Shown here piece after piece: positions 105-44,770 of a DNA stretch of 64,000 bases. The DNA lies in NCBI GenBank assembly GCA_963575645.1, contig OY754468.1, positions 19,616,465-19,680,464 on the forward strand, in the 5' to 3' direction. This DNA is from Xanthostigma xanthostigma (taxonomy: Eukaryota > Arthropoda > Insecta > Raphidioptera > Raphidiidae). Within the stretch, counting starts at the first letter, position 1. Each line of letters begins with the position of its first letter. The position numbers were made by a program, and so were the translations under genes. The notes beneath the pieces were generated by a model that was not told the DNA's origin, did not search any database, and saw only the letters and a list, made by a program, of their open reading frames with translations.

Positions 105-469
105 CTAATGTAATGGCTACTATCAGTATCCACATTTCGGTTTGTGTTTGTGGATGTATGTCGCCAAAACCAACACAAATAGTTGCCATAGCTATCCAGT
201 AAAGTCCAGTTAAGTAAAGTGTCCAAGGATCAATGGATTCAAAATCTACAACATTTTCGAAATTACTCAAAGATAATTTTCATAATCAATTTGAATCACA
301 TGTCGTACTTGCATGACCCATATAGATCCGGTATCTATGGATCCATGATCCCAGTTTAGGAGTTATCGTTATTCTTTCATTTACTCTCAAAAAGTCACAC
401 GAAAATAGAAGCAATATCGATGTCCATACATTAGTGAATATTATGATCGTCAATAAGCATATAAATATA
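105..469 (-). pseudogene. Channel E25: repeat 3, S5, pore and start of S6, with two in-frame TGA codons
   Basis: 121 codons; acceptor TTTTTAG, likely donor GTAAAA. S5 is TNVWTSILLLFSCDFL; the pore is LYWIAMATICVGFGDIHPQT, the only visible repeat with a K+-channel-like GFG filter; MWILIVAITLG starts S6. Between S5 and the pore helix the frame holds TGA at 286-288 and 280-282. No pair of GT and AG sites in matching phase would remove them. Either this repeat is broken, or there is a local sequence error or polymorphism. The next exon is outside the window. Confidence 0.75.
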
Positions 470-3400
470 CTAAAAACAAAAGTATTTGTGTTAAGATTGC
501 TCAGCTTTTACTACGTATACACACAGCAAATGCACTGCGCATGCGTGTAGAGTGCGTATGACGCTTCAACAGAGAGAGAGAGCAGAAACGATTCTCCCAC
601 TCTTTCCTTTCAACTGCCGGTTGAAGTCGAAGAAGGGAAAGCGTTCCACTTTCCGTTGTTATCCAGGACTATTTACCCCCCTAGCGCGCCTTAAAAAAAT
701 TAGGTGAGTCCTGAAAGGAAAGCATAAAAATAACTGAGCCAGGGCAAAAAAAATAATGATCAATGCCACTGTTTTTGGAGTCACTCTTTAAACTCAAGAT
801 GGTTGGAACCGACCCAGCGGAATGTAATAGGCCCCACTCACGATCAAACTTCATGCCACAGTTCAGTGTTCAGTGAAGTTGGGCCGATTAATCGAAAGAC
901 TGACTGGTACCACACACAGTTCATGCAAACTGTTCATTTTTTTAAATTTTTTGTGTTCAGTAACTGTTGGCATACACTCGTCGAGTATAGATATATAAAA
1001 TATATATTATATACATACTATAATATTATACTATAGATAATTAATAAGAACTAAATGAGTTATTTAAATGGCGAGGATTGGCTGTTCATAGCTATGGGAT
1101 TGTATTTAAAATAGGGAAATAAGAAAAAAAAGAAGAATATGGGTGAAAAATTTGTTAGAAATGCGTGATTCAAGAAGTCATATTTATTTGATTAATGAAT
1201 TACATCTTGAACCGCTTGATTGGAATAATTATTTACGAATGGATGAATTAACTTACAATTATTAGTTACCCCATTTATTAAGAACCAGGACACAAATATG
1301 CGAAAATCTATTTCTGTACAAGAAAGACTTGCAACAACATTGAGATTTTTGGTTTCTGGTTGTACAAAACACAGAACTCCAAAAACTGAACTGAAAAAAA
1401 CCCACACACCCAGCAGTTTACTTCAACACTGAACTCGTTCAAAAATCAAGATGCATTTGATGAGTTCATGCTTGACTTCAGTGTTGGTTTCAGTGTTTAT
1501 TTGTCCCACACATTATCATGCTTCACTGAACTATAAGTTTGAACACTGAACTGTGGCATGAAGTTTGATCGTGAGTGGGGCCTATTAGCCTGATTCAAAA
1601 GATGAATTGGTACGTCATCGTAAACTTACATGAGCCATCCAGTGCCCTTGAAAATGTTCTCTCTTTGGTACTCGAGGGCGGAACGTAAACGATACATTTG
1701 AATGACTCTGTTGAGTGCGAACAGTTCGAGTACGGCTGGTAACTTGATTTCCGGACCAGTCAATGCCGGTGACACGCTTTGAATTATTTTCTTGAACGGA
1801 CAACACGCCACTATGTCAGTTATCATGGCATGGGTCATGTATCTCTTCGCGGTTAATAGTGGATGACTAATAAGCACACCTTTTGAATTGTAATACCCGG
1901 CGTGCAAACGAACATATCTGTAAGTTATGTAAGTAATAATAGTTTAGTAGGAGAGCTATCAAACATTTTTGGGTGGGCATTTTAAACAAACGGTAATTTT
2001 TAATACTTACACAAGTGTGGAGTGCTAGGAAAAAAATAGTATTACTAATAAATGGATAACATTTTTCTCGAATATTTTCTTATGCAATCTTATAAACATT
2101 TTATATGAATTTATAGAGACAAAAATGGCGATTGCGAAAATGTAAACAAAATATTTTGGCATTTGAAAAAAAATGTATGTACACTTCCGGTTGACTTTGA
2201 AGTTCAAAAAAATATACCTTAAAGTTTCCGATAGTAAATTCCGAGTTGAATAAAAAAATTATCCAAATTTTTTTTGATACAAGAATTGTTTGTTGTTACC
2301 ACTATTGCTGAACACACTGTATATTTATATTTTATTTAAGCAAGACAAGTTTTTATTTTTTTAATAAATTATTAGCGATCAATTAAAAAAAAATCCAACT
2401 TACATATCAATGTACGCTGATACATCCAAAAATAGCTCAACATATATAATTGAGGGAAATATCGTGCTAATAAAATAGTGAGCTGGAAATACAACTCCAG
2501 AAAGAAATGCGCACACAGAGCGATATATTTCCCACCAAAGCATAAAATTTCCACTTGGAATCGTCGTCCGGGTTAATAAGAAATATCTGTAAAATGCACC
2601 TTTTTATAAAGAAAGTCACTTTTACACACATTGCAAATAATCAAGTGGTGACATTAAGGTATTTGCTTTGCTAAAAAATTTGCTAAAAGTTTTGGGGCGT
2701 ACGCATAGTAAACAGTGGAAGAATCAATAGTAAAATAATCCAAAACTTTAATCTAAGACTGTGACGTATAGCTAAGAGCCAGTAGCCGTGTGACAACACA
2801 TATTTTAATAAACCTGAATATTATAAGCCTATATTTATGATGGCAAACATATAAGTAACTAGAATACGCTAATGCGTATGCTTGCCATAAGTGAAAGTGT
2901 CCTCAGTTAAGGAGGTTAGCGCATGAAAAAATTTAAACATTTTTTAATAAAATTTTTTCTATATACCTACCTATTCATAATAATTTGTGTAAACTAAATT
3001 AAAAATTTGAAAATTATTGACCACTTAATTTTCGAAATATTAATGATTGAAAACTGGGAAATTAACACGGTAGAGATAGAGAATCAGTACACGATGTCTT
3101 TAAACCTATTTTCGGTAATGTTTAAATAAAGATTTTTTTATAAAAATGACTGTAATAGATATAAAAACTTTTTTTTAATATAAAAAAAAAATTATTCACC
3201 ATTTAAATAATTTGTATTTAACATTTTTTGAACCACATAACTGTGTAAGCTGGACGCTACCAAAATTTATATAAATAAAATAATTAAATTTAATAATAAA
3301 TTAAGAAGAAAATTATTCTTAATAAAGTTTTCGTAATATAATTTTTATAGCTCTAACATACAGTGTGTGCATTCCTAAATTCGCTACAGTAGCTGTAAAT

Positions 3401-6400
3401 TCGCTACAGTAGCTGTAGCGAATTTAGGAATGCACCCACTTATGTAAACAGTCAGCCTTGAAATCTTATTTTTCAATTTGACAGATAATATTCTTTTGCA
3501 AAATGAATGTGTATACTACCGAAGAAAATATTCAAATGATTACAACATAATCGGACTTTTTTTATTAATGGGACATTAAATTCCCAAAAACACTTAAATA
3601 TGGTGCGAGATCAAATATCTCCGCCTATTCGTGTTGAACCTAAAGACATTTGGGTCACTGATTTACCAACGCGCATACGTCATACCAGTCAGACAATTTT
3701 TGAATGAAATGTTTCCAAACAGATGGAGTTGTTTTTTTGTTTTATTTTTGTACAAAAAAATTAAAATAATGATTTATAAGAGCTTTTTATTATTAAAAAA
3801 GCCAAGTAAAGTAAAAATAAATCTAAATTAAATAGAAATCCTCAAGATTACCACGATAATTCAATAGAAATAACAATTAATGCAGTCATGGCTAACTCTG
3901 ATCCAAGTATTTTTTCCCAATGCTAATTTCCCTATGTGCACCTTACGCGTTTACATATTGTATAATATTTATTCGTGTTTTTTGCAAAATTACAGACAAG
4001 AAGGAAAAAATTTCTATTTTATTTTGTTATTTCAAGGTTGGCAATTTAGTCAAATTGTCAACTGTAAGTTTCATTTATTAACTTAAAAAAAAAATAATTG
4101 ACTAGTGAATTAATAATAACCATGAAATAGTACTATCTTAATACCTATATGATCAATTAAAAATAATCCTATTATATTTTTCTTTTCCTTTTTAAATAAA
4201 TTTAGAATAGATGTTCAACTAGTAGAAAGTACCACTCAAACCTTCTTAAGCGAGAGAACGCTGTAGAAAGCCAGAAATCAGCATTGTTTTGCATCATTAG
4301 TTACCATAGAGATAAGGAACTGTTCTCTCTCTTAATTGCAGACACTTTCACTGCTCTCTCGCGTACTCTATTGAAATATCTCTATGGTTGTATCATCCCG
4401 GCAGACACCATAAAAGGTCTGCTGTATGAGCGCGATGATATTATTATGCAAACATATGAGTGCGAGGTGAGAGCATTCGATGACTTTTTTTGACAGCCTC
4501 GTGAAATTTAGGTGGTTTATTTGTTTCCATAATTTTGTGAACGCATCTGCAGAAACTATCTTGAACGAGACGTGAAACGTAGCTACGGACGCAAATCAAT
4601 AAGGATAGTCAACGTAATTTCATCGACGAGTGATTTAATTTGTGAGTGAAAATTTCCCAGAAAGTGAAAGTATGATAAAATCAAATTAAAAGAAGTTTTA
4701 CTTCAACCACGCGTAAAGGTTACATAATATAGTACTCATTTATTTTGGTGAGATTTATTTAAATATTTTAGAAACCTTGATAAACTGAACAATCCATTTT
4801 CAAACGGTGCCATATAATCACTTCCAGGTAAGTGTCTTTCTCTTGATGAATAAACGTACCATGAACTTTTCTTTGGTTCTCGTTTTTCATACATCATGAC
4901 TTGAGACATGTGCTCGAATTTTCGCGGCATTATCTTTTAACGAAATGAAAATAGAACATGTAAAATCTAACAATACAGAATTATTTTTAAGCTGTTTCTT
5001 CTTTTTTAGCAGCGTGTAATAGACGAACAAAAAGCCGTTCAAATTTTTTAAATTTCAATAAATTAAGCTTATAGTTTCGTAAATAAATATTGAAAATAAA
5101 AAAACAGTTGTTTTTTTGTTCTGAAGAACTGTCAAAAAGAAATTACTTATAAGTATTGCTTTGGCAAAGTGATACCATATCTTATGTATAACTATCGCTC
5201 AAACGAGTATCACATTTCATAATATTAATTACTAGCCGTTACCCGCGTCACTGCACACGTTAACTGAAATTTTATTACCTTTTTATAATAGGTATTATAG
5301 TTAGGTACGCGGTGACAAAAGTGCCTTGCAACTCCCAAACGGATGATAAGCACGTTTTTGTATAGTTCGAGTGTCGTTCTCGAAATCCGTGTTGTCGAGT
5401 AGGGGTCTGGCGTCCGACGTTGAGCGGCTATAGTATTTTTTCCGAATTTTGCCCAGCAGTTCCAAAAATCATTTCCCAAACGGATGAAAATTACTGGAGG
5501 GCATCTACGCAAACCCCCAATTACCGGAAAAATATTTTCATCCGATTTGATCCTTGCCGTAGCCTGCAGTACAATTAAATGGACCCAGACTCCGAAATGA
5601 AAAAAATCATCAGCCGCATGCATGCAACCGGACTGATATAAATGGTTATTATTTATGTTATTAGAAAAAAAAGTTTTCATCCAAAATGCGCCTGGCTAAA
5701 CTATGCCAAATAACAAAAAACCCCGCCAGCGCGCGTGATTTTGATCCCGGAGTTCTCCGTAAATTTTCTGATAATATGTGGCTATACATATATACTTTGG
5801 TATCAATCGGCCTATATAATAACCAAATTTAATTCACGAGCAAAGCGAGTCAAACGCTAGTAAAGAGATACTAGCTAATTTGTGGATGAAGTATGCGCTT
5901 GGAGCGTTCACACGGTCCAAAAGTCGGAGTGTTCCCTTCATAATCGTCAAATCAGAGGAAAATAGTCTCATCAATGTTTAGGACAATAATACACAATTTG
6001 ATTGTAATCGGCCTTTCCACATTAAAGATTGAACATTCAGATCCTGCAGTTTCCCGTGATAATGAATATATCGGAGCATTATTATGGATGATCTGGACTT
6101 GACCGCAACTTTGGATGAAAATAATTTTTCGATGTTCTGTAGGTGTCAAAGAACCTGTGGGCAAATTTTCATCCATTTGGGAATTACTTTATCAAATTTG
6201 GCCCATTTAAATTTTGGAAAATTGTTACAAAGCGATCGCGATACATAGAGCAAAACAAATTTTTTTACATATTCTCAGACACGAACTATATCTCCCTGCC
6301 AAATTTCAAGTTCAAATGAGGAAATTTCCCCCCCCCCTTTTTTCCATTTTTTTTAGAGCTTTTGGAAGAGCTCTTTGCAAATATCAAATCGGATGAAAAT

Positions 6401-33400: not shown

Positions 33401-36400
33401 TAGCACTGTTGTCTATAATATCATCTGCTGTTGTTTGTTGCTTAGAAATTAAGTAACTGCAAACTTTTTCGAGATCTGTAAATTGCTCACTAGTTAAAAG
33501 CCCATTACCCATAGCAGAAACTGCATCCTGAACAAAATACAGATTCGCGGCGTTCAACATTTGTGTTTTTGTACCTATGCGACTTGTGGTGTCGCAGCCA
33601 GTTAAAGAGTGCAACCCTGGTAAAATATCACATATATTTTCGCCAAGACTTCGTGCAGCTAAATGGCACCCAAGAAAACGGTTTTTATTTCGTGATCCCT
33701 CAAACCACAAAGCGCAGCAACCTAAATTTTTAAGTTTATTCCAGAAATAAAGGCCTAATACAAAGATATCGGTGTCAGGGCTTAGAATAATTATCTCTGC
33801 ACTGTCGTTGTGTTTGACAGAATGAAAAATATGGCAGAACATTCTTGAATCTAATTTTGACAATATTACAAAAGAGAGAGAGAGAGCGTTAATGTAACAA
33901 AGCTTGCTACAATGGTTTTAACGAGCTGGCAAAGTCGCATGACACAGAACCGCGCGCGCGCGCGGCAACATGGCTTTTTACGATGTCGATAGCATCAGGT
34001 AGATGAATCACAAAACATTTCGCGGTCCGCTATTTTTGCAAACGAACATCCCCTTGTAGCCTGCTCTATAAACAATGAATGTTATTTATTTAATTTAATA
34101 AATTTGTAACACACATTATACATAAATTGTATCTTTCTGCACTCCTCAATTTTTAACTATGCCAGATCTCACACTCCTCCGTGCTTAAAGAGAGGTAGGT
34201 ACAAAGTTTCCCTCCACGTATTTATATTTATATAGATTATAACCGATCACGTACGCCGTACACGTTTTTTTTTTTTTTTTTTAAAAGGTATATCCAATTG
34301 TATATATCCACATATATAGAGCATATGCACATATACAAGAGAATATCACTTGGGGGGGTGGCACTACCTCTTGGTATCTGGCCAGTATCATTAAATATCA
34401 AAGCTGGGTCTAAACGACAAACACAAAATATCCATGAGCAGAGGTGGGATTCGAACCCACGACAGTATGATCCAAAGGCCAGCACGCTGACCATTACACC
34501 ACGCTGTCCTCGCCGTACACGTTTAAGTAAGTACTAATCGCTTTTTACAAAAATATCTACGAATTTATTCGTGTTGCGTAAGCACATTACTTCATTAGAT
34601 TTGATGTTCTAAACAGGTCAAAATGTAGATACAGCGGTACGAAACAGATGGATTTCTCACAGAATCTACTAATTCTAATGCTCGGTTGCAGAAAGCATTG
34701 TTAGAAAATTTGATTTAACAATGATTTTGGGGCTTAGATTGTGATCACATAATAATTACAGTTTCCATACATCGGAAGCAGTCTAATGTTGGATTCAAAC
34801 TCCTTGTTATCAATTAGATGGTATACACTCACACAAAAACAAATAGTTGTTCTACATAGAAAAAAACCGCTTTTTAAGCTAAATTTTGATCCAAATGTGT
34901 AGAAAAATGTTGTTTAGAAATCAAGCAGGATCGATTTAAAATTCTACTATGCTTTCCATATGGAGAAACACGTAAGTTCACAGTTTAAGGTCATTATCAA
35001 ATCAGATTTTTTGACCATCCCTAGTCTGCTTAATGAATTCTTATAATTTTTTGTGAATTTCAGTACATTTTTTATAGGATTATTACGGATTATCTCCTGA
35101 ATATTTTCAGTAACGGGAGACTTAGGCCTAGTTTATATGAGAGGCGTTCAACGCGCGTTGGCCCAACGCGCGTTTACAGCTTCTATACAATTGTATAGGA
35201 CTGTTTATATGATAACGCGCGTTGGTGGCGCGTTGAACGCGCGTTATCATATAAACAGTCCTATACAATTGTATAGAAGCTGTAAACGCGCGTTGGGCCA
35301 ACGCGCGTTGAACGCCTCTCATATAAACTAGGCCTTAGGCCAGGTTTATATGAGGCGTTCAATGCGCGTTAGCCTAACGCGCGTTTACAATTTCTATACA
35401 ATTGTATATAAATGTTTATATGATAACGCGCGTTGGTGGCGCGTTGAACGCGCGTTATCATATAAACAGTTATATACAATTGTAAAGAAATTGTAAACGC
35501 GCGAAAGGCTAACGCGCGTTGAACGCTCTTCATGTGCGCTAGCCCTTATTTACTAGTTATTAATTTCAACTCGAATAATTAGTGGCGTAACTATTCCGTT
35601 TGATGCCCGTGGCAAATTTTAGGTACTAATGGCCATATTCACCGAACGTAAGTAGTTTTTTATTCGGTTCATTTGTTTCATTCCTTCGAATAAATAGCGA
35701 TAATTCAATTCACCGAGCATAATTATGTTTACTCCAAGTATAAAATAATCTATTCTGTCCAAATTTTCGGGTATAAATATTCATTCGCCTGAGAAAATAA
35801 TAATGGCGCCACATAGATCATAAAACTTAACCTATGAATGTGGAGTATTATATCTGCAGTTGCTCTTGTGAATTTATTTATGTGTTGTTTAATAATCTTT
35901 TATGAAGTGTATAGTTGTAAAACATTAGTTAGTGGAAGTTTTGTGTGCAATTGGTTAGGAGAAAACATTCTTATTTTAATGAAAATTTTTTTGACGTTTA
36001 CACTAACGCCATCGGTCGAATTTTTGGGGGAACGTCACAATAGTCAACAAAAATATCAAGGAGTATAGTTTAGTGTGTATTTATTATCAACTAACTATTT
36101 ACCTGATAATTTGGTTGGTAATTTTATTGTAAAAAATAAATTTGTTCCAAGGTTAGTAATTTCTATCTAGTGTTCAATGAATATGGCCAAAAATGTTGTA
36201 AATAGTAAATGTTAGGATCCCCCTGTGATCACGGCTCTTTCAGGCCCGTGGCCCCGTGGCATTTTGCCCGCCCTACCATCCTATTGTTACGCCACTGCGA
36301 ATAATTAAAACGTACTTACCCTTCAAACATGACGGTTGACGTGACAAAGTATATACACAGTACGTACCAATCAACTGGATCTTTAATTTGACTCATATCC

Positions 36401-39400
36401 TTCATTTCAATATAATCTCCCCAATTTTCTGATTTCTGTAAATATATCGCACACCCCTTAGTATGTATATTATTTTAATATTTCATAATTATTATATTTC
36501 TAGGGTGGGGTTAAAACATCGAAATAAAACTGTAACTGAACTTTTATCTATACTAATATTATAATATAACAAGGTAAAGTTTGTAGGAGGTAATCCCAAA
36601 ACTACTCATCCGATTTCAAAAAAAAATTTCACCAATATTTAGAATGGACCTTCAGGATGGACATAGGCTATATATTATGGATTCGTGGAGTCTAATTTTG
36701 CAACGTAAGTCGACGAAAAAACGGTGGTGATCTACAAAATTCGGGCGAGGCCGGACCGAGCCGCTATTATTAATATGTAGAATTGTGAGATTATATTTTT
36801 AGGATCGAAGAAGACTCACTCCGTGAACGGATGCATTTCAAATAGTATCTATATTATAAATATAAATTAATGCAAGTCAATCTTCCTTTGAACGAAATGA
36901 AGACTTTTCAAAATAATCCCAAAGACTTAATTGGTACGTCTATAAAAATTATAGAATACATTTTTCATGCTTACTGAACTTTTGAGGCCGTACCAAATGC
37001 AGCCCATTGTGTGTATCATAATGAAACCTAACACCAGTGCAGTTTTATAAAAGTAATATTTATTTCCAACACCTTTAGCTGATTCGACTGTGGGTGATAA
37101 AAGACATGTTTTTTAGTATAGATATAGAATGGAAGGTACACACTGTATACCGTATAAGAAAGTTTTTTTTTTTTTTGCAATATGAAACATACATCATTAG
37201 CGGATTTAATCAAAATAAATTCAAATTGGTAAAAATAAAAAAAATTAAAGCGTACCATTTGCATCATTACTATTTTCCATCTATAAAACTTTTCCGTTAT
37301 TTTCTACTTTTTTAAACTTCCACTTAAAAGCAATGGGCGAATGAAGGAATTTTTTGGACATTAGGATAAGATAAGCAAATTTTGAACATATAGAAGTTTG
37401 ACCATGGCCATGGCCTTGAATAAGGAACCATCTCGATATTCATCTGGAATTATTGGGGGAAACCATGGAAAAACTCAACAATATGGCCGGTACAGGAATT
37501 AACGTTTCTCGGCGAGGCGCAGCAGGAAAAAGTTCCAGCCACATCTGCCCCCGGCGGGATTCGAACCCGGTACCTCCCGAATGCGAATCTAGTGCTCTCA
37601 CCACTACGCTACACCGCTCGGTAAAAAAAATTAGATAATAGATACCAATTGGAAGGTTGTCTGATATAGAAATATGAATAGTTTATTGTTTTTGGAGAAA
37701 ATTGGCGCATGCCCAGAAGAGATATATGCTATACTTACAGCATTGTTTTTTTTTTATTATAATGGTAAATTTTTCATAACGGTTTATTATTCTATTTATT
37801 TTTGGTAGAAAGTTTTGTTTTGTTTTCCTAATTTTATAGTTTCTGAAATAGTCTTAAAATTAAAGTCAGCCGTTCTTTTTGCTCTGTAGATCTATCAAAA
37901 ATAAATTAGTTAAATAGCTGACTAGCATGTCAGCTACCTAGGTTGTTTCTTTTATTTATAAATTATTATTAAATACTTTGTACTTACTAAAATAGTGCAC
38001 AACTCGGTACAATCTTAGAGTTCTCACAACTAAACAAGAAATGTAGTATGCATGCTGATGAGTGAATTGCCAATTTAATGTCATAAGAGATATAACGAGC
38101 AGTATTGTATCGAATATTACCGCCCCTAGAAAAGATAAGTGGTGGACATAGAATAATTATTATTGTGTGGTCTAATTGCCTAAGAGCTATCAAACATTTT
38201 TGGATAGGTATTGGATGCACTATAAAAACTTAACTAGCACTTCTTTTGTAATGTCTAAATACCAAATCGAAGACCTGGCTGAAGGGTAGTGGAATCTAAC
38301 CAACCCTTGAATTTTTAATTTTTTGAAATTTTATTTGTAAAAAATATTCGTAATTCTTAAGGCATATTGAATTTTTATACCTTCAAATTCAGTATTTAAT
38401 AAAATAAAATACTAATAAGCCAGATTATTTGGTCTGGTCGAAATGTTTGCCAGGCGGTTTCAAAAATACCATCAATACCGAAAATTATAGAATAGCTGAT
38501 CGTATTACGAAAACATAATGTTTTTTTGACAAAATACTAGTCATTTAATTACTTTTTTATTTTAATAAAGATTATTTATAATTATTTTTATTCAACTCAT
38601 GCGCGTTATTCATGTTTTATCATGCCTAAAATCCGAACCCTAAATAGCCATTTACCTACTGGTGACAATTACTTGTCATAACTCAATGAAGATTCCTACT
38701 AGCTCGGCCATTGTGGAGTAATGAAAATAAACGTAACTATTTTCTGAGTCGTAATGAAATAGTAGGTAACAACAACAGTCTCTGTTGTTACCCATTGAGG
38801 CTAAAATTGAGAGGCCGAATGTTTTCGACATGGAGTTTATTCATAACCGGCTAACCTCAAACCAAAACATTGAATCGTGCTGTTTGGTGCTGTTAGTATT
38901 GACAGTTTTTTTTATAAAGAAATAAATAGATATTTACAACATCTCATTAATAACAATAAATAAAACATGAATAACGCGCAATTGTTGAATAAAATTATGG
39001 GCGTAACTTGTAGGCTAAGTCATGACCTGTCAGCGCCATGAATGACTTAGACTACTAGTTACGCCAATAACTATTACTTCATATATGTTTGTCATCATAA
39101 ATTATGATTTTACATATTTTTTAAATAACTGAAAGAATTAAAAAAAATGTAACAGTTGTTATGACTAGAAAGTTCCGCGAAAACTTCCTTAAGTCAGCGT
39201 TTTGCTCTTATTAGCATATTCGTAAATGCTGACGTAATGATTTAGTTCCTCATATTACCGTATATTTGAACAAATTAATACGGTTATTGTTTATACTTAC
39301 ATATAAATCGTACTTTAACATCCCTTGTCGACGCAACTCTAGGTAGGCAAATATGCAGAAGAGCGGAAATAATATCTAACATAAATAATAGATTACAGAT

Positions 39401-41519
39401 GACTTGAAATACAAAAAAAATTGTTACAGTTCTATATGTATGAAATGCAACCTGAAAAATAATATATCTGTGTAAATAAAAATCTATTGCCGCACGTATG
39501 AAAGATCATCACTTTAAAATGGCACGACCGATTTGCTTGATTTTTTTTTTGTTGTGTTCGTAATTGTCAGGACAAAGTTTGTATGAAAGAAAATTTTTGT
39601 AAAATCCACCAGAAAAGTCGAAAACTTGGATGTTATTCTTATATGAAAATCTCAATAAAAATGTGACGATCAGTTTGATAGTTCTGCTGTATAGATGAGA
39701 AGATCAATATACCTAATATTTTCAGAAAGAGAGAGATAAAGAAATAGGGAGAGAGAGAGAGAGACTAGGTATATTAATAAATCTTACAGTTTTGCACCCG
39801 GGTGAACCGGAACGTGCCGCTAGTATAATATAGAATAGAGGAAATAGTAGTACCTAGACTTTTGATGGTCGCATAATCATCAATTTTTTAATTTCTTACA
39901 AATCCAATAATAATTTAATAAAGATCAAGAGATCATAATACAATAGAGTTACTATAATATTATTAGTGAACGTCCATTCATTACGTAAAGTATTTTTTTT
40001 AATTTTACTAGACACTCTCCCCTCCCCCTTGGTGATATTTAGTAAGATATAGTAGGACCTCGCGTTTCCCTCACGTGAGATATTATATCCTATTAGTTAT
40101 TACTTTAAATAATTAAATTTACTAGTGGTCGACCAGTGATCGAAATTCGACCGTACTTCATTAAATTAAACTTTGAACGTTATTGAGATTCTTTTGTCAT
40201 TATATGAATTTCTTCTTAATCGATTTTACCTTTCATTAGTACACATCGTGATGAAACATAAATTGTGCACGTCCCCTCATTAAAACGAAAATAACGATGT
40301 ATGTTTCATCATAATGTGTGCGAATTAACACAGTCAAGTCGAACTACACTCTTTTTGTCCTTCCCGTATTTATACAGCAGAACCTCTGTAAGTCGAGCTT
40401 CAAGGGAGACGCCAAAAAATCGAGTTATAGAGTTTTCGACATATGAAAGATTTCGACTTAGGTGGATTTTGTATAGAGGTTAAGATTCATTCTAACTAAC
40501 GTTGAGTTGCTATGTTCGAGATACAGAGGTCCAATTTATTTTCTCGAGTTATGGATGGAAATGTACTGAGGTGGCTTGTAGGGACTCACTGCAGTTATTT
40601 CGACGTAGAGGGTTGAGATTTCGAGTAATGGATGTTTTGGGGCTTGAAGGGGAGGGAACAAAACATTTTTTCGAGTTTTGGAGGTTATCGACTTATTGAG
40701 GTTCGACTTATGTATATAGATTTGGTTGATAGTGTATTTTGCTTCATACCTACCACTAAATACCAAATGTTATTACTGATATCTTCTATATGTACTACAT
40801 TTTTTCTTGAAATAAGAGCAGAAATATAAATACTATTTATTTTGGTCGACAATTTTATTTATTTGAATAAATACTATTTGTTTTCTGTTACAATAATGTA
40901 TATTCTCTGAATTAAAAAGTTAACGTGGGATTTTCATTGACCCCCCCATCCTTTAAATGATATTTGGTGACGTTTTGCCGGACACCCCATTTTGAGCTTA
41001 CAATTGTTCACAGACGATGGAATAGGTTTAATTCAAGATTACATACCTCATAAAGGTCGTAACAAAAGTCCATAGCAAGCAAAATAGCGAGTACAAATGA
41101 CCATGTCTGGGAGTGGTGAAGAAAAACTAGAAAAGTTACGATGTCATTTCTCAAAAACAAAGGAGTATACGATGCCTGAAATGTAAAAAAAAAAAACTAA
41201 AATTTACTTTCGGTTTTTAACAGTATTTTTGTCGCTCGACTATTGTAATGTTCACACAGCGCCGGATTTAAATTTTTGGTGCCCTAGATTAGTGAACGGT
41301 ATTATAGGCCGTAGGTTGTAGCCCACATCGTCCACGCCGTATGTCGCTTCTGTGCTGAATTATTCCAATTTTGAGTCAACAGCTGGGATAATAAAAGTAA
41401 TAATTATTATGTACCTCGCTTTGTGATCTTGATTCCGAACTTGATGAGAAATTATCTTGGTGCCAAACATTTCGGGACTGTATTGTTGCAGATATTGATC
41501 TTTCTATCGGTATACTCAT
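105..41519 (-). CDS. Serial-repeat CNG/HCN-like channel gene (25 visible exons; 3' end beyond left edge)
   Basis: Envelope of a large gene whose exons (E1-E25, transcription order) are listed separately. I chained them by open frame, GT-AG sites and splice phase; apart from E4, and E25 with its two stops, every exon length agrees with the translated codon count. The product is one chain with repeated units of S1-S6, pore loop, C-linker and CNBD: repeat 1 in E1-E13, repeat 2 in E14-E21, repeat 3 from E22. This is the HCN/CNG/EAG superfamily fold, which acts in the plasma membrane and normally assembles as four separate subunits. By analogy with four-repeat CNGK channels, one chain could form a whole pore (inference). 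Arguments for one gene: phase-0 joins between repeats (E13-E14, E21-E22), no start codon in E14, and no stop at either repeat end. The alternative is a head-to-tail array of separate genes, with E22 as a possible new start. Selectivity filters differ between repeats, and the E25 stops could mean a pseudogene. Confidence 0.8.
825..1587. mobile_element. Inverted-repeat element, 763 bp, in channel intron E24-E25
   Basis: Ends TAATAGGCCCCACTCACG and its complement (right end GGGGCCTATTA). The arms share about 45 bases, including the repeated CAGTTCAGTGTTCA theme. No transposase frame. Confidence 0.75.
1630..1917 (-). CDS. Channel E24: repeat 3, S2-S4
   Basis: Ninety-five codons between TTACAG and GTAAGT, phase 2 at both ends. 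YVRLHAGYYNSKGVLISHP is the classic S2-S3 loop (R-x-x-T/A-G-Y-x-x-x-G-x-L); MITDIVACCPF is S3; LELFALNRVIQMYRLRSALE is S4 with three arginines. Confidence 0.9.
2075..2325. repeat. Dispersed repeat, copy shared with 9225-9487
   Basis: Long similarity to 9225-9487 in the same orientation (for example the CTTATGCAA and GGTTGAC/AGTTGAA blocks). Family unknown. It lies in the intron before channel exon E24. Confidence 0.6.
2404..2586 (-). CDS. Channel E23: repeat 3, S1-S2
   Basis: Sixty codons; acceptor TTACAG, donor GTAAGT, phase 2 at both ends. IPSGNFMLWWEIYRSVCAFL matches the P-x-S-x-F-x-x-x-W-D/E entry into S1 of the family; IIYVELFLDVSAYID is S2. Confidence 0.9.
3368..3434. repeat. Short palindrome
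   Basis: TGCATTCCTAAATTCGCTAC and its complement flank an internal duplication of the AGTAGCTGTA theme. The rest of the intron 2587-4775 holds AT-rich DNA and repeat fragments (2850-2915, 4205-4400 related to 13510-13745). Confidence 0.7.
4776..4933 (-). CDS. Channel E22: linker between repeats 2 and 3 (or a separate gene start)
   Basis: Fifty-two codons plus two bases, with GTTTCT as donor. EHMSQVMMYEKREPKKSS and RHLPGSDYMAPFENG resemble the linker in E13 (KHVLKIVKEKIRKKEESG and RLICSDLYVPS), and the phase fits E21. The acceptor is an unusual AAG after a pyrimidine tract. The second codon is ATG with an in-frame TAA just upstream, so E22 could instead start a separate downstream gene. Confidence 0.65.
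5297..6636. mobile_element. Inverted-repeat element with ~260-bp arms
   Basis: The left arm (5297-5555) and right arm (6378-6636) are near-exact reverse complements (CCGCGTACCTAACTAT at the right end). The open frames in them are mirror images of one repeat, not genes. It directly abuts the next element. Confidence 0.8.
6638..7750. mobile_element. 1.1-kb near-perfect inverted repeat
   Basis: Both ends carry TAGTCAGAGTGCCCGTCGGC in opposite orientation and the arms remain complementary almost to the centre (about 7195). The left arm has a 140-bp internal direct duplication (6951 and 7091). TAT flanks both sides. A truncated, rearranged copy lies at 41725-41990, about 200 bp upstream of the channel start codon. 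Confidence 0.85.
7932..8077 (-). CDS. Channel E21: repeat 2, CNBD end
   Basis: Forty-eight codons; acceptor TTTAATTTCAG, donor GTATGT, phase 1 in and phase 0 out. RPVVHDIRTLTHARLMRLSY is the last beta strands, with valine where the nucleotide-contacting arginine would be. YVSIRNILMEYPLSEKTILK matches the C-helix region (L-x-x-Y-P). The exon is squeezed between two inverted-repeat elements (6638-7750 and about 8131-8807). Confidence 0.75.
8131..8807. mobile_element. Inverted-repeat element with nested palindrome, between E21 and E20
   Basis: The ends GATCC(C/G)..TATTAGAAATATATA are complementary, and long arms follow. Inside lies a second palindrome at 8588-8717 (CCGGGATATTGTCAAA at both ends) built from repeats of GTGATATT and TTTCAC. 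Confidence 0.8.
8824..8902 (-). CDS. Channel E20: repeat 2, CNBD middle
   Basis: Twenty-six codons plus one base; acceptor TTTTTGCAG, donor GTAAGC. SSNFCVYEMLL aligns with the phosphate-binding cassette G-x-x-F-G-E-x-x-L-L, with the first two FGE residues changed to VY. It begins 17 bases beyond a hairpin element. Confidence 0.75.
9577..9708 (-). CDS. Channel E19: repeat 2, CNBD first half
   Basis: Forty-four codons between TTACCTAG and GTAAGC, phase 0 at both ends. CLNKIASAAQTYILPPNEMV and AYAGEVCHECYILIQGYCE follow the CNBD consensus (Y-x-P-x-D/E-x-I/V ... G-E-V ... Y-I-L/I-x-x-G). Confidence 0.9.
10046..10626. mobile_element. Mariner-like non-autonomous element, TA-flanked
   Basis: The 581 bp have terminal inverted repeats CAGTATGGTCACTTAAGTGT, flanked by TA on both sides. 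Arms of over 100 bases are near complements. There is no transposase frame. Confidence 0.85.
10688..11167. mobile_element. hAT-like non-autonomous element, very GC-rich ends
   Basis: Terminal inverted repeats TAGATATGAGCGCC and an exact 8-bp target duplication CATCCAAT (10680-10687 and 11168-11175) support a hAT-type insertion. The subterminal regions are dense in GCCGCCGCC and GGCGCGCC, an island in otherwise AT-rich DNA. Confidence 0.85.
12074..12305 (-). CDS. Channel E18: repeat 2, C-linker
   Basis: Seventy-seven codons; acceptor CTCTTTTAG, donor GTAACC, phase 0 out. ELRKFLKAQKML and ESRVNQYLILQWY are the C-linker helices, PEHLRDAQKIHRCI the L-x-x-x-I helix, and IKQIPIFK leads into the CNBD. 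A 980-bp TA-flanked element begins about 50 bp upstream of the acceptor. Confidence 0.85.
12357..13336. mobile_element. TA-flanked inverted-repeat element, 980 bp
   Basis: Ends CAGGGTGTGTCACAGAAAAC and the complement (GTTTCCTGTGATACACCCTG), flanked by TA. It is mariner-like and internally AT-rich with no coding frame. It begins about 50 bp upstream of the E18 acceptor. Confidence 0.8.
13794..14060 (-). CDS. Channel E17: repeat 2, pore and S6
   Basis: Eighty-eight codons; acceptor TATTCTAG, donor GTGATT. CKEDSWYVLM is the turret C-x-x-x-S-W-Y of the family; NNIFSLSFAFGLMLIVTTNL is the pore helix running into the filter TTNLGDF; ILEMIFLILFFTIALMFSSF is S6. The filter lacks the first glycine and the aromatic residue of GYG. 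Confidence 0.9.
14090..14640 (+). repeat. Dispersed repeat shared with 50560-51150 (reverse) and 18190-18330
   Basis: Extended similarity in opposite orientation around GAACGGAGTGCCCGATTGAAAC and the CTTAGGAAGCTATTCTGAC block. No coding frame; probably one end of a larger element. Confidence 0.65.
14746..14885 (-). CDS. Channel E16: repeat 2, S5
   Basis: Forty-six codons plus two bases after a TTTTGCAG acceptor. YVVYLMLFSYWIGTMAFMLA is S5, ending ACFKG before E17 (VCKEDSWY). The GTAAAA donor fits the phase of E17. Copies of a dispersed repeat lie on both sides. Confidence 0.8.
15190..15420. repeat. Perfect-arm palindrome, family P copy 1
   Basis: About 230 bp with nearly perfect arms containing AAAAAACACGCTTTATAT and AAGCTTAAAAAGCGT. 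The loop is centred on the GGAACAAAGCGC/ATGTACGAAAATG area. Copies are at 44545-44770 and 49300-49525. Confidence 0.85.
15430..15990 (+). repeat. Tandem units attached to palindrome P
   Basis: Three partial copies of a unit beginning GAGGATCTATAAAAGAATTT or AATAAGGATAATGGGAAACT and ending near GACTTCGGGAAATTGGTGAAA. The same unit occurs in four copies at 49540-50200 and once, reversed, at 44300-44530. Confidence 0.8.
16000..17790. other. Intron sequence with inverted repeat arms, no gene seen
   Basis: AT-rich DNA between E16 and E15. Segments near 16440-16500 and 17270-17330 are complementary (GGTGACAGAAATGGTCAAGG and its complement), so most of 16440-17330 is an old inverted-repeat element. 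No credible exon. Confidence 0.6.
17797..17966 (-). CDS. Channel E15: repeat 2, S3-S4
   Basis: Fifty-six codons, phase 1 in and phase 0 out at GTAATT. PSLIMDILAVFPLATF is S3 with the usual M/V-D-I-x-A-x-x-P pattern. AVILLFSNRILKCHK is a weakly charged S4 (R, K, K). Confidence 0.85.
19116..19366. repeat. Near-perfect palindrome, 251 bp
   Basis: Arms starting GACCAAAATTGCGATCTG, with a centre made of alternating blocks TTACAATTGTAATAGTATTA. The flank 18940-19090 resembles 8935-9080. Confidence 0.85.
19597..19673 (+). other. tRNA-like sequence (Leu/Ser-type A box), probably pseudogene or SINE head
   Basis: TATGGCCGAGCCGTTAAAGCG is A-box-like and GGTTCGATTCC a B box; a T-rich tract follows. The acceptor stem pairs poorly and no clear anticodon arm is present, so a functional tRNA is unlikely. 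Confidence 0.45.
19967..20216 (-). CDS. Channel E14: repeat 2, S1-S2
   Basis: Eighty-three codons plus one base after a TTGCAG acceptor. It starts ISQQLSDDMCVRTVWPWILR with no start codon of its own; WDTIVVVTVLIFCVVYP is S1 and FFLMGVDIIFILDIVIQIF is S2. The phase-0 join to E13 is the key evidence that repeats 1 and 2 are one protein. Confidence 0.85.
20357..21391. mobile_element. Inverted-repeat element of family G, split by a later insertion
   Basis: The left end AAGACCGCTGCACACGAGGC belongs to the family seen intact at 56958-57408 and 58390-58813. Its right end is interrupted at 20787 and resumes after 21369. A partial copy is at 24306-24393. Confidence 0.75.
20787..21369. mobile_element. 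hAT-like element nested in family G
   Basis: The ends (A)AGGTTACCAGA and TCTGGTAACCCTA are the hAT-type GGTTACCAGACGTCCC terminus, and the 8-bp duplication CCTCATGT is exact (20779-20786, 21370-21377). The insertion splits an older element, giving the relative age. Confidence 0.85.
21440..22110. repeat. Repeat region, no gene
   Basis: Contains short inverted and direct motifs (GACTC/GAGTCATTC, GAGCGACAC at both ends) suggesting a degraded inverted-repeat element. The open frames here show no recognisable domain. Confidence 0.45.
22262..22406 (-). CDS. Channel E13: linker between repeats 1 and 2
   Basis: Forty-eight codons after a clear CAG acceptor. KHVLKIVKEKIRKKEESGG is a basic helix, and the exon ends RLICSDLYVPSK at a phase-0 GTAATG donor. 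Read unspliced, a stop follows after 13 codons, so an alternative short product ending here is possible. Confidence 0.8.
23013..23282. mobile_element. hAT-like MITE, 270 bp
   Basis: Ends CAGGCCTGGGCAAA and TTTGCCCGCCCCTG with an exact 8-bp target duplication TTATAATC (23005-23012, 23283-23290). The interior has GGCCCGC repeats typical of hAT subterminal ends. Confidence 0.9.
23433..23482 (-). CDS. Channel E12 (tentative): helix after repeat-1 CNBD
   Basis: A 50-base open segment (YDASREINQFVADVHR) between a TTTAAG acceptor and a GTGATA donor. It converts phase 0 (E11) to phase 2 (E13), as required, and would form a charged helix. Both splice sites are weak. Confidence 0.5.
23986..24201 (-). 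CDS. Channel E11: repeat 1, CNBD second half
   Basis: Seventy-two codons, GTAATT donor, phase 0. AGSILGESSL is the phosphate-binding-cassette start and keeps the G-E. Where cyclic-nucleotide binders have R-T/S-A, this copy has SPVQVRAS, with no arginine at the contact position. It probably binds nucleotide poorly or not at all (inference from HCN/CNG structures). Confidence 0.9.
24891..25037 (-). CDS. Channel E10: repeat 1, CNBD first half
   Basis: Forty-nine codons, phase 0 at both ends, GTTAGT donor. LFYDLDSALLRAVACNM begins the CNBD, and DILFQKGEKITKMIYIVKGN matches the beta-roll consensus (I-x-x-x-G-E/D ... M-Y-F/I-I-x-x-G). Confidence 0.9.
25529..25680. repeat. Palindrome, 152 bp
   Basis: TGTATATGTTACGG at one end and its complement at the other; the interior repeats GAATTAACCGG-type blocks. 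It lies in the intron between E10 and E9. Confidence 0.8.
26065..26232 (-). CDS. Channel E9: repeat 1, C-linker
   Basis: Fifty-six codons, phase 0 at both ends. KVPRKTRQQLVQYYLMTWHE matches the family pattern of P-x-x-L/T-R-x-R/Q-V-x-x-Y-Y-x-x-x-W, followed by LFQKLPFTLYHEVNLDIY (the L-P-x-x-L-x-x-E-V element). A clear CNG/HCN-type C-linker. Confidence 0.9.
26498..26663. repeat. Palindrome, 166 bp, 27 bases downstream of the E8 donor
   Basis: GACCCCGCACAAACCTTATG and its complement, with arms of about 65 bases and an AT-rich loop. It would fold in the nascent channel transcript right after the splice donor. Confidence 0.8.
26691..26868 (-). CDS. Channel E8: repeat 1, filter end, S6 and first C-linker helix
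   Basis: Fifty-nine codons after a CATTTTAG acceptor. LGDIIAVNDNEKSIAILMMV is the post-filter GD followed by the outer S6; FALFIGFFVGSWTSM is S6; KKYRRYAEYDQRLRLIYQDL begins the C-linker. The GTAAGT donor lies 27 bases from a 166-bp hairpin. The preceding intron is 9.4 kb and holds the LINE and a SINE. Confidence 0.9.
27594..28210 (+). repeat. Pair of ~130-bp direct repeats
   Basis: CGGACTCTCAGTGGAGTTCC and the following ~120 bases occur at 27607 and at 28080 with few differences, separated by unrelated AT-rich sequence. Possibly the remains of terminal or tandem repeats of one element. Confidence 0.7.
28827..31802 (-). CDS. LINE ORF2: APE endonuclease plus reverse transcriptase
   Basis: An uninterrupted 991-codon frame. 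Residues about 35-250 form an APE-like endonuclease: NIRSINKN, TECW (catalytic E), GDFN, CIDH and the terminal TDHYSTI. Residues about 480-790 are the reverse transcriptase: YRPISLL, FGFRHGQGTND, LDLAKAFDTVSH, GIPQGTVLGP, the catalytic FADD at about 706 and IKYLGL. No RNase H is seen. It nicks the target and primes reverse transcription of its own RNA. The intact frame indicates recent insertion. Confidence 0.95.
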   Translation of the reverse strand: MVSFFDEIDTIESIENVITDDVSIVNNIICTEFENLKIINLNIRSINKNFDELILLLSSFNHAFDLIVLTECWLNNIYIPKQITGYNSFKTSQHQHQNDGVVIYIKASLSTTVTEISIVGSNALQVIINGNLVVLSIYRSPSERNILPFLDDLRLNLDKIHKYETIIITGDFNINILSASNRHPQADMYLDLFTEYNIRPPITKPTRIFNETESCIDHFMIKTRLAINAVIFESTITDHYSTILTINYNLRHNVPQPKAIKSVTNYENLLEFLNREPWTETMTTNDVNVAAEKFIHTFQTHIKNTTETHTLKHKHHSLKPWISVNILKSIHKRNKLHQKVKKFPLNIQLKTYYLRYRNICNSIIKTAKNTFYKTRIEQQAHNTQKIWQTIKEITNTNKNKTQNTHIVHTDNSIINTDTDPMAAANVFNDHFSTVGNRLATQLIEKLQTTEEDLADMTIPSRNLPHSLFLTPVTNREIVEIINDLKTNSAPGPDTLQPDLFKKTKNYIAQPLAHIINLSFETGVVPEHFKESIICPIFKSGDKTDVTNYRPISLLNTTSKILEKAIKKRLTQYLDKHNILSCNQFGFRHGQGTNDAIVRLTTDIVRDVDKNLKSLAIFLDLAKAFDTVSHKILIQKLNNIGIRGVTLDWFKSYLSGRRQVTSVNKTMSNSQIIKYGIPQGTVLGPIMFLIYVNDLCNLNIDGSITSFADDTALYFTGVTWNETYNKAESGLAKVAKYLDDNLLTLNTTKTKYLTFSPTITGQPTDLTLQLHQCKQKKTNCDCTTLTRADNIKYLGLTIDNRLKWDTHIHDLTKKIRKLTYIFIPLRHILTATLIKNVYYALCQSLLTYGISAWGGAYGSTLVPIKNAQKLILRVITRKNPRFSTAQLFKEFRVLDISQLYIKSILNLYHRTPSLQNPLSHPHDTRSQIQNYEQLPKMSKTFGQRHMIYLAPKIYNHIPSEIRSVKHNIKRFNRCLTKWLVTDEARRAYHILI
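32213..33160 (-). pseudogene. LINE ORF1: PHD finger, coiled coil and RNA-binding domain, broken by one TAG
   Basis: A 316-codon frame interrupted only by a TAG at 32693-32695. The N-terminal half has a C4HC3 PHD-type finger (CNIC, CVKC, HAKC, KCKEC) and a coiled coil rich in E, K and N. The C-terminal half (IDIAHRLS, RGIIVKF, KEEFLAKKRD) resembles the RNA-binding domain of L1 ORF1/FP-type proteins. It would coat the element's RNA. The frame continues unchanged beyond the TAG, so this is a single nonsense change. Transcription runs with the host gene. Confidence 0.8.
33381..33863 (-). pseudogene. Fragment of a repeat-encoded protein with SPDTD and LPG...TGCD motifs
   Basis: An open stretch of about 155 codons without credible ends. 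ILSPDTDIFVLGLYFW and LPGLHSLTGCDTTSRIG are motifs I associate with dispersed proteins in invertebrate genomes that look like PIN/FEN-type nucleases, probably transposon-borne. Family and function are inference. A GA microsatellite borders it (33867-33885). Confidence 0.4.
34265..34510 (-). mobile_element. tRNA-derived SINE with poly(A) tail and target duplication
   Basis: The minus-strand head starts AGGACAGCGTGGTGTAATGG (A-box-like) and has a perfect B box GGTTCGAATCC. The element ends in an A tract of 18 or more (T tract at 34265-34282). The flanks carry the same 11-base sequence CGCCGTACACG (34254-34264 and 34511-34521), a classic target-site duplication. Confidence 0.88.
35125..35335. repeat. 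Nearly perfect GC-rich palindrome, 211 bp
   Basis: Arms start AGGCCTAGTTTATATGAG and hold several ACGCGCGTT blocks; the centre is at about 35230. The same protein-like open frame appears on both strands because of the symmetry; it is not a gene. Confidence 0.9.
35336..35550. repeat. Second, diverged copy of the GC-rich palindrome
   Basis: Adjacent to the first copy with the same GTTTATATGA and AACGCGCGTT blocks, but with mismatches between its arms, so it is older or was copied differently. Confidence 0.85.
36320..36435 (-). CDS. Channel E7: repeat 1, turret and pore helix
   Basis: Thirty-eight codons plus two bases, ending at a GTAAGT donor inside the filter codon. KDPVDWYVLCIYFVTSTVMF is the pore helix. 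Joined to E8 the filter reads TVMFEGLGDI, so the usual TVGYG/CIGYG is replaced by FEGLG. Confidence 0.85.
36540..36790 (+). repeat. Dispersed insect repeat fragment
   Basis: CTATACTAATATTATAATAT followed by the ACTACTCATCCGATTTC and GGATGGACATAGGCTATATA blocks and a GCGAGGCCGGACCGAGCCGC end. This pattern is common near ends of dispersed arthropod repeats. Confidence 0.55.
36975..37087 (-). CDS. Channel E6: repeat 1, S5
   Basis: Thirty-seven codons, entering in phase 1 and leaving in phase 0 at GTAAGC. TALVLGFIMIHTMGCIWYGL is a typical S5 end: the family often has a histidine followed by C-x-W/F-Y at the outer end of S5. Confidence 0.85.
37390..37622 (-). mobile_element. Second tRNA-derived SINE family member
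   Basis: The minus-strand head has GTAGCGTAGTGGTGAGAGC (A box) and GGTTCGAATCCC (B box), followed by an unrelated body. Left end approximate, no duplication identified. It sits inside an older repeat shared with 53.7-54.3 kb. Confidence 0.7.
37660..37980 (+). repeat. Dispersed repeat, related to 47130-47410 and 53690-54290
   Basis: Shares TTGGCGCATGCCCAGAAGAG, the poly(T)-ATAATGGTA block and the AGCATG block with 53690-54290. The family ends near ACTAGCC(G/A)TTACCCGCGTC. Confidence 0.6.
37988..38125 (-). CDS. Channel E5: repeat 1, S3-S4
   Basis: Forty-five codons after a TTTTCTAG acceptor, ending at GTAAGT in phase 1. FDTILLVISLM is S3. LVVRTLRLYRVVHYF is S4, with arginines every third residue as in voltage sensors of the family. 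Confidence 0.85.
38381..38411 (-). CDS. Channel E4 (tentative): 31-base micro-exon, S2-S3 loop
   Basis: A 31-base open segment (YFILLNTEFE) between a TTATTAG acceptor and a GTATAA donor converts phase 0 (E3) to phase 1 (E5), exactly what the join needs. The acceptor has a weak pyrimidine tract. Chance cannot be excluded for so short an exon. Confidence 0.35.
38420..39290. other. Intron sequence, small hairpins only
   Basis: Contains a short hairpin at about 39000-39065 (GGCGTAAC...GTTACGCC) and AT-rich unique-looking DNA. No exon beyond the tentative E4 was found. Confidence 0.5.
39301..39375 (-). CDS. Channel E3: repeat 1, S2 segment
   Basis: Twenty-five codons between a GTTAG acceptor and a GTAAGT donor. 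ILFPLFCIFAYLEL is hydrophobic and is followed by RRQGMLKYDLY, which resembles the S2-S3 loop of the family (compare RLHAGYYNSKGVL in repeat 3). The exon leaves in phase 0 but the S3-S4 exon enters in phase 1, so a small exon must lie between them (see E4). Confidence 0.7.
40375..40711. mobile_element. Tigger/pogo-like MITE fragment
   Basis: Starts TA-CAGCAGAACCTCTGTAAG and holds GTCGA-type subterminal blocks; the right side has GAGGTTCGACTTATGTA. The right end is approximate. Confidence 0.55.
41047..41175 (-). CDS. Channel E2: repeat 1, S1 segment
   Basis: Forty-three codons between a TTTCAG acceptor and a GTATGT donor, phase 0 at both ends; the other two frames are closed. The hydrophobic stretch WSFVLAILLAMDFCYDLY is taken as S1. 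The loop to the next hydrophobic stretch (E3) is unusually short, so one small exon may be missing in the 1.7-kb intron that follows. Confidence 0.75.
41415..41519 (-). CDS. Channel E1: start codon and cytoplasmic N-terminus
   Basis: The 35 codons begin at an ATG (41519) that has an in-frame TAA 21 bases upstream and no ATG between them. The peptide begins MSIPIERSIS and ends in a serine-rich tail (SSSSESRSQSE), followed by a GTACAT donor in phase 0. It looks like a short soluble N-terminus. A further upstream non-coding exon cannot be excluded. Confidence 0.7.
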
Positions 41520-43770: not shown

Positions 43771-44544
43771 AACATAATATGTAAATTGTGCAAAAATTAC
43801 AAAAATGTATTCTGACGTGTAGTTTTAAAGATATTTCAATATAAATAAGTGAAAATTCGTTAAAATATATTGTGTTAGCCATACTTAAAAATAAAGGACA
43901 TCCTAGTCGTGAAACCTTGGCAACGCCATGGTTAGTCTCTATATTCTAGATGATTTTTTTCGCATTATCGCTGATATTATTTTTTCATTTTACAATACTT
44001 TTTCTAGCAAACCGTCCGTTGTATCGAAATTGAGGAATTTTTTCACTCATCATTTACATTTATATACATATATCAGATTCAAATAAAATAAATAAAACAA
44101 TTAATTTTAAACCTTTCTGTTCTATATGTAAAATATCAAATTATATTTTACATATAAAACAGAAAGGTTTAAAATTAAATCTATTGGAAGCTTTGGAAAT
44201 TAACAAATGCAAAAATTCATCCAATCTATTAAATGATCAAAAAGACATCTCCACATCACCTTTACTAAACCTAAAGTTTAATTTTTAATGATTATAGTGT
44301 TCTTCCTTTGTTCTTTTTAAACGCTTTATATTAGTTTGGGTTGTAACTAACTATGTATGTATGTATGCATGTAACGGAATCTTTGAGCATAATTTTCACC
44401 AATTTCCCGAAGTCTGATTAATTTGAAACTTTGCATACGTATCAAGGACCGATGACAATGCAATAATTTGATAACAGTTTCCCATTATCCTTATTAGGAC
44501 CCCCAGGATTAATAAATTCTTTTATAGATCCTCAAACTAAAAAG

Positions 44545-44770
44545 TGAAAAATAAATATAGTTTAAAAAAAACTAAAAAACACGCTTTATATCGAACTAAA
44601 AAGTAAAAAATAATTTTTTTAAAATAAGCTTAAAAAGCGTTGGGCGCTCGATGTACGAAAATGTGGAACAAAGCGCCCCACGCTTTTTAAGCTTATTTTA
44701 AAAAAATTATTTTTTACTTTTTAGTTCGATATAAAGCGTGTTTTTTAGTTTTTTTTAAACTATATTTATT
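44545..44770. repeat. Palindrome family P, copy 2
   Basis: The same hairpin as at 15190, with a single reversed tandem unit on its left (44300-44530). Arm differences (ATCGAACT in place of ATCGGACT) occur symmetrically in both arms. Confidence 0.85.

Follow-up and report, generated by a model that had tools for sequence, protein, structure and literature searches.

The 64-kb stretch of insect DNA analyzed here (hereafter the window; C5:19616465-19680464 of its own genome assembly, 623 Mb in 28 contigs, with window coordinate c corresponding to genome position 19616464 + c) contains most of a gene that, judging from sequence comparisons, most probably encodes a single chain of four 6TM-pore-C-linker-CNBD repeats and descends from the CNGK channels (we put the probability at about 0.85). 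We call the product a CNGK-derived variant rather than a CNGK because the GYG/GFG filter feature of CNGKs was tested and found in only one of the repeats. What would be new is that an insect has a family of CNGK-type proteins with four repeats in one chain and with pores that appear to have departed from the K+ signature. Within this family, the window gene is the intron-rich member, with the filters nearest to those of CNGK. The insect origin of the assembly is borne out by the odorant-receptor family 7tm_6, which matches it 78 times and, to our knowledge, is confined to insects; the 14 controls of this comparison are, as far as they are named, prokaryotes.

Gene Model and the Fourth Repeat

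The exon joins were derived from the open frames and the splice context of channel-like frames, with the small exons E11 and E19 located by phase. The 25 exons rebuilt in this way run along the minus strand from 41519 to 105, with all joins in phase, and are listed below together with those found beyond base 1; the basis is the spliced model unless another is given. From the first linker onward, an earlier sequence-only reading of this DNA numbered the exons one higher than we do (its numbers are given in parentheses).

41415..41519, minus: E1, N-terminus from ATG; ATG, GT donor and phase with E2 only, the start codon being least certain
41047..41175, minus: E2, repeat 1 S1
39301..39451, minus: E3, repeat 1 S2
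37988..38125, minus: E4, repeat 1 S3-S4
36975..37087, minus: E5, repeat 1 S5
36320..36435, minus: E6, repeat 1 pore helix
26691..26868, minus: E7, repeat 1 filter (..FEG/LGD..) and S6; also filter alignment
26065..26232, minus: E8, repeat 1 C-linker
24891..25037, minus: E9, repeat 1 CNBD, first half; also Pfam
23986..24201, minus: E10, repeat 1 CNBD, second half, GE kept, without the cassette Arg; also Pfam and alignment
23838..23890, minus: E11, post-CNBD helix; small exon located by phase
22262..22406, minus: E12 (E13), linker from repeat 1 to 2; also paralog alignment and join scores
19967..20216, minus: E13 (E14), repeat 2 pre-S1 to S2; also PDB match and join scores
17797..17966, minus: E14, repeat 2 S3-S4
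14746..14885, minus: E15, repeat 2 S5
13794..14060, minus: E16, repeat 2 pore (TTNLGD) and S6; also filter alignment
12074..12305, minus: E17, repeat 2 C-linker
9577..9708, minus: E18, repeat 2 CNBD
8824..8902, minus: E19, repeat 2 CNBD; small exon located by phase
7932..8077, minus: E20 (E21), repeat 2 CNBD end
4776..4933, minus: E21 (E22), linker from repeat 2 to 3 and repeat 3 pre-S1; also paralog alignment and join scores; 5' end uncertain, weak acceptor
2404..2586, minus: E22, repeat 3 S1-S2
1630..1917, minus: E23, repeat 3 S2-S4; also matched in the paralog searches of the genome
309..469, minus: E24, repeat 3 S5
105..245, minus: E25, repeat 3 pore (CVGFGD) and start of S6; the gene continues left of base 1
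-1948 to -20178 (C5:19614516 down to 19596286), minus: E26-E37; genome extension

The sequence-only reading had described two complete repeats and most of a third, connected in frame; our independent rebuild arrives at the same result, and the joins proposed there, 22262 to 20216 (E12/E13) and 7932 to 4933 (E20/E21), are identical in our model. Its further suggestion that the two linkers resemble each other did not survive: the local score of E12 against E21 is 20, compared with a shuffle mean of 19.1, and is matched by 37% of 1000 shuffles. Of the four paralogs tried, three have a start that E2 weakly resembles (shuffle p 0.04-0.06), and that of the paralog on contig C4 shows no such likeness. 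Inspection by eye and a repeat profile both failed to reveal channel-like exons in the region preceding E1 (41.5-64 kb); the profile could miss a repeat as diverged as repeat 1 is from repeat 3. A candidate exon between E14 and E15 (17331-17480) was rejected: its frame is open, yet phase does not call for it and it has no channel likeness by eye.

Extension of the assembly left of base 1, proposed earlier as a check, recovered what was missing of repeat 3 and a fourth repeat as well. In the 49 kb beyond base 1, repeat 3 is completed by its S6, C-linker and CNBD, and a full repeat 4 follows, all within 20.2 kb of base 1. The full model has 37 exons, with 6147 coding bases across 61,698 bases (61.7 kb); all 36 introns are GT-AG, which was a condition set in choosing the boundaries and is not an independent test. 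The exons form a single open frame of 2048 residues that ends in TGA, with no stop or frameshift, and the lengths of repeats 1-4 are 553, 472, 523, and 500 residues, respectively. The G+C fraction is 0.363 in exons vs. 0.332 in introns. A missing micro-exon was also sought in the repeat 3 CNBD and became superfluous once an in-phase acceptor gave E29 from -8780.

Paralogs in the Same Genome

Searches with P0006, a CNGK-type protein discussed below, and with the two query proteins P0123 and P0124 detected at least nine paralogs with the same repeat order, so that the family, for which this count is a lower bound, has at least 10 members including the window gene, most of them without introns in the coding frame. 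The members other than the window gene are as follows.

C11:2731645-2779701 (2.73-2.78 Mb): four tandem copies, frames of 2021, 2019, 2016, and 2007 codons
C11, 21.98 Mb: distal paralog, frame of 1798 codons
C8: paralog, frame of 1747 codons
C2: intact paralog, frame of 2005 codons
C1:6478127-6487403: paralog 97% identical to that on C2, repeats 2 and 3 split by a 3.4-kb insertion
C4: paralog in three frames, repeats 2 and 3 sharing one 992-codon frame

Seven of the nine are single uninterrupted frames, although two of these have incomplete ends: in the C8 and distal C11 members, S4 of repeat 1 is not aligned and the final CNBD is cut short within the frame. P0123, an intronless single frame, contains four cNMP_binding and three Ion_trans stretches. 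Judging from these seven frames, the genome does encode single-chain four-repeat proteins. The tandem genes on C11 are intronless, 89-96% identical and represent a fast-evolving recent expansion. Their dN/dS values (Nei-Gojobori) are 0.49-0.71 over six pairs, and those for the two halves of C1 compared with C2 are 0.25 and 0.27. The insertion in C1 carries a 443-codon frame that, by eye, resembles a hAT transposase, and the blastn pieces on its two sides share 9 bases, the pattern expected of a target-site duplication. At C4:51389743, the genome also has an ordinary CNG-type exon with TIGETP.

Probable Continuity of the Chain

Sequence support for one polypeptide now goes beyond splice phase alone, and the mRNA would run across all the joins. 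Scored against a profile of six paralogs from which the window gene was left out and in which the C4 member had been put end to end from its three frames, the spliced joins J1, J2, and J3 obtain 36.0, 54.1, and 39.5 bits, respectively. The alternative is a row of three or four tandem single-repeat genes that end after E12 and E20 and restart at E13 and E21. In its favor, in-frame stops are located soon after both donors (12 codons past that of E12 and 2 past that of E20), ATG is the second codon of E21, and the E21 acceptor is weak (-3.5 bits, as good as 60% of the 2800 AGs in the gene, with no adjacent pyrimidine tract). Nevertheless, the residues flanking the first two joins align with paralogs that have them in one open frame, as most paralogs do throughout, and even the fragmented C4 member holds repeats 2 and 3 together; the phases of E12 and E13 match, and a start at the ATG of E13 would leave only six residues ahead of the WPWILRPHS pre-S1 motif. 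Given the match of the joins to the paralog profile and the single-frame paralogs, we consider separate genes very improbable. Because the E21 acceptor is weak, the position of the join between repeats 2 and 3 is uncertain and the exact join may differ from the model; weak sites occur elsewhere in the gene as well (E33 donor, -0.45; E30 donor, 0.44; E18 acceptor, -5.8 bits).

Domains, Pores, and Ligand Sites

A CNBD (PF00027, cNMP_binding) is detected in every repeat of the single chain, with 36.2 bits (6.1e-9), 23.2 bits (7e-5; under the 27.5 cut-off), 33.8, and 38.6 bits in repeats 1-4, the last two values being over the cut-off and referring to the complete repeats. Ion_trans matches repeat 1 (1.2e-7) and does not match repeat 2, and Ion_trans_2 matches the in-window part of repeat 3 below the cut-off (5e-4), the complete repeat 3 over it, and repeat 4 just under it. 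The PDB sequence matches are the plant channel GORK for repeat 2, over nearly all of that repeat (5e-25), KCNH, CNG, and SthK chains for repeat 1, and SKOR (1.5e-8) for repeat 3, which is SKOR/GORK/KCNH-like. On these sequence scores, the channel matches are not due to chance. Repeats 1-3 (repeat 3 in part) are only 13-16% identical to one another.

In the G-[YF]-G columns, which depend on the MAFFT alignment, repeats 1-4 of the window gene read GLG, NLG, GFG, and GLL. Thus, a G[YF]G filter is present in one of the four repeats (repeat 3), in none of the 36 repeats of the nine paralogs, and in all four repeats of P0006. The phosphate-binding cassette is degraded throughout: repeat 1 has GE and lacks the Arg, repeat 2 has neither, repeat 3 has FGH with an Arg one place ahead of the usual column, and repeat 4 has FGL and no Arg, so that no CNBD of the window gene combines the cassette Glu and Arg in the usual columns. 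In the S4 segments, some basic residues remain.

Relationship to CNGK

The sole CNGK-type reference in this comparison is P0006, which was retrieved in a protein search and is called CNGK from its four repeats and filters; it has 2204 residues and four pore-CNBD repeats (R1-R4) with the filters GFG, GFG, GYG, and GYG. The phmmer scores (bits) against R1, R2, R3, and R4 are as follows.

Window gene, repeat 1: 95.6, 71.9, 89.3, 31.8
Window gene, repeat 2: 78.7, 93.8, 68.6, 76.5
Window gene, repeat 3: 100.7, 86.1, 170.7, 77.7
Window gene, repeat 4: 73.0, 91.1, 67.4, 117.8
One-repeat control, KCNH: 110, 121, 158, 122
One-repeat control, plant: 99, 106, 120.4, 120.1
One-repeat control, CNG exon of the same genome: 99, 127, 156, 95

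Each of the four window repeats obtains its top score with its same-number counterpart in P0006, and the same-order assignment ranks at the top of all 24 (477.9 vs. 439.1 for the next). Because the one-repeat controls favor R3, the preferences of repeats 1, 2, and 4 do not reflect a general pull, whereas part of the preference of repeat 3 is general, given that all three controls also peak at R3; its margin for R3, 70 bits, is larger than the margins of the controls. When the repeats are scored by halves, the C-terminal half of repeat 1 prefers R3 (69.8 vs. 59.4) and the TM half of repeat 2 is level for R1 and R2 (39.9 and 38.4).

A 13-row tree joins repeat 2 with R2 at 87/87, the other joins being weak. 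In a 35-row tree, each window repeat groups with the same-number repeats of six of the nine paralogs at 100/100; R3 joins the repeat 3 group at 76/91 and R4 the repeat 4 group at 58/24, R1 and R2 fall outside the same-number groups (p-AU values of 0.32 and 0.44, respectively, do not reject such a grouping), and it is the KCNH row, not R1, that adjoins the repeat 1 group (89/87). Given the long branches of the trees, the main basis for CNGK descent is the same-order scoring of the window gene.

If single-repeat CNBD channels had fused independently in insects, a CNGK-like build would have arisen in another lineage. The weak tree joins with the P0006 repeats, the placement of the KCNH row and the 20-24% identity of window repeats 1-3 to their same-number P0006 counterparts are compatible with such an origin, as are the scores of six paralogs, for which the same-number P0006 repeat is the best match in 13 of the 24 cases (repeat 1 in 0/6, repeat 2 in 6/6, repeat 3 in 5/6, repeat 4 in 2/6); we weighed these scores and the KCNH placement against CNGK descent and for independent fusion. 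Yet the order of all four window repeats is retained despite the pull of the controls to R3, the lengths are similar (2048 vs. 2204 residues), and both proteins have FGL instead of FGE in repeat 4. Furthermore, the split between repeats 1,3 and 2,4, which PMC7576140 reports for CNGKs, also appears in our tree, though at 26/80. We therefore regard independent fusion as improbable, if less so than separate tandem genes, and favor descent from CNGK. The sequence-only reading had likened this DNA to the single-chain, multi-repeat CNGK channels, in an insect, and this likeness is strengthened by the fourth repeat, the terminal stop and the same-order scores, together with the same-order paralogs.

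Conduction and Proposed Mechanism

The CNGK-derived chain should fold as a pseudotetramer, with four pore loops around one central pathway, four S1-S4 modules outside, and a ring of C-linkers and CNBDs below the pore. If it reaches the membrane and conducts, the most likely mechanism would be an asymmetric pore, with repeat 3 alone supplying a K+-type filter strand and with K+ selectivity weakened or changed. Its gating might depend on voltage, on pH, or on some ligand besides plain cGMP or cAMP; zebrafish CNGK offers a precedent for the loss of cyclic-nucleotide gating (PMC4749565). We consider conduction through the center of the chain moderately likely. The protein could instead be a regulator or sensor without central conduction, or its gene could be heading for loss, which would be compatible with the one-chain reading. 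The absence of the filter motif from three window repeats and all paralog repeats, the incomplete cassettes, and the disruption of the C1 paralog by an insertion all point in this direction; against it stand the 2048 codons kept open over 37 exons, dN/dS below 1 in the paralogs, the intact CVGFGD of repeat 3, and the remaining basic residues of S4. On balance, a chain that does not conduct through its center seems to us less likely than not.

Comparison with Known Systems

With Nav, Cav, and NALCN, the window gene shares four repeats per chain and unequal pore loops. These channels are not known to have a C-linker or CNBD, and the window gene, which has CNBDs, is related by sequence to the CNBD channels. 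KCNH, HCN, CNG, and GORK/SKOR channels, among which are the best PDB sequence matches, have the domain plan of each of its repeats. As far as is known, they contain one repeat per chain, unlike the four in one frame found here.

The closest parallel is CNGK, with four 6TM-CNBD repeats per chain of ~2000-2200 residues, a CNBD in each and, by score, the same order. CNGK (or tetraKCNG) channels are reported from sea urchin, ascidian, zebrafish, sea anemone, sponge, and choanoflagellate (PMC4749565, PMC7576140, PMC8835908); the hosts described in PMC4749565 are marine invertebrates, freshwater fish, coelacanth, and a choanoflagellate, and the CNGKs seen in the tree of PMC8835908 come from ascidian, sea urchin, acorn worm, amphioxus, sea anemone, and fish. 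CNGK pores are described as GYG or GFG, and the domains as nearly identical and unspecialized (PMC4749565, PMC6259924); in sea urchin CNGK the third CNBD alone works, whereas zebrafish CNGK is pH-gated and has lost cyclic-nucleotide gating (PMC4749565). The window gene differs in the divergence of its repeats, in keeping one filter of four, in its degraded cassettes, in its insect host, and in belonging to a family of mostly intronless coding frames. The sites given for zebrafish CNGK by Fechner et al. are residues 483-497 after the first CNBD, residue 934 in the second CNBD cassette, and residues 1254-1269 in the third S5-pore loop (PMC4749565); the corresponding points of the window gene lie near 488, 970-980, and 1263.

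A search of public proteins of 734-2336 residues returned one protein, P0002 from EukProt (2248 residues), and no insect protein, and a second search found none among 6791 candidates; the word filter of these searches misses relatives at 25% identity, so that absence elsewhere is not implied. P0002 also has four pore-CNBD repeats per chain; however, it is barely matched by the in-window part of repeat 3 (E 0.49), and its filters differ by eye from those of both the window gene and CNGK. Scans of prokaryote and viral contigs gave none that was confirmed, and a LINE scan gave none. Two-repeat tandem CNBD channels are described for dinoflagellates and oomycetes in PMC7576140. The literature searched, in the titles, abstracts and passages covered, reports no insect CNGK or four-repeat CNBD channel (cf. 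PMC3481119, PMC6660944, PMC8004680, PMC10120453), and in PMC4749565 the word "insect" occurs once, in the reference list.

We tentatively propose, at slightly less than even odds, that insects or one insect lineage turned an ancient CNGK into at least 10 single-chain, strongly asymmetric four-domain proteins without K+ filter or ordinary cyclic-nucleotide binding. This would be a second, independent path that starts from a symmetric K+ pseudotetramer and leads to a new selectivity or to pore asymmetry of the Nav/Cav kind, its products having spread as copies that mostly lack introns, with the window gene (37 exons, filter nearest to CNGK) as the most ancestral member. An insect CNGK member, if real, would mean that a sperm-signaling channel moved onto land, beyond external fertilization. 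The family would offer natural variants of the single repeats of a one-chain channel without the K+ filter, in which the origin of four-domain asymmetry, as in Nav and Cav, is testable repeat by repeat. A role in sperm is a guess by analogy with CNGK biology; if testis-expressed, the gene would become a candidate for insect sperm physiology. A search of the genome for CatSper-beta produced no match, and the control likewise matched nowhere.

Other Elements in the Window and the Genome

The 9.4-kb intron 6 contains a non-LTR retrotransposon (28827-33181, minus strand). Its ORF2 is open over 994 residues (Exo_endo_phos, RVT_1); its ORF1 occupies two frames and includes Baculo_FP_2nd and a PHD-like stretch that, at 23.2 bits, stays below the cut-off of 24. 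Beside it, at 33381-33917 on the minus strand, is a 178-residue open frame with no Pfam match at E 0.01. A search of Rfam returned nothing at the gathering score.

The repeated stretches at 15185-15896, 44399-44774, and 49284-50107, which are partly inverted and contain open frames of 41-45 residues that are 100% alike, are window copies of a recently spread short mobile element. At 35101-35545, there are close-set direct and inverted copies of one unit, with translations about 76-83% alike. A genome pattern search that skips simple repeats gave 0 exact TTAGG matches; 11 of the 16 contig ends examined bear, instead of plain TTAGG, arrays of a short unit, 21-22 bases long at ten ends and 42 at one, e.g., AAAAAAGGGAAAAAACGGGCC.
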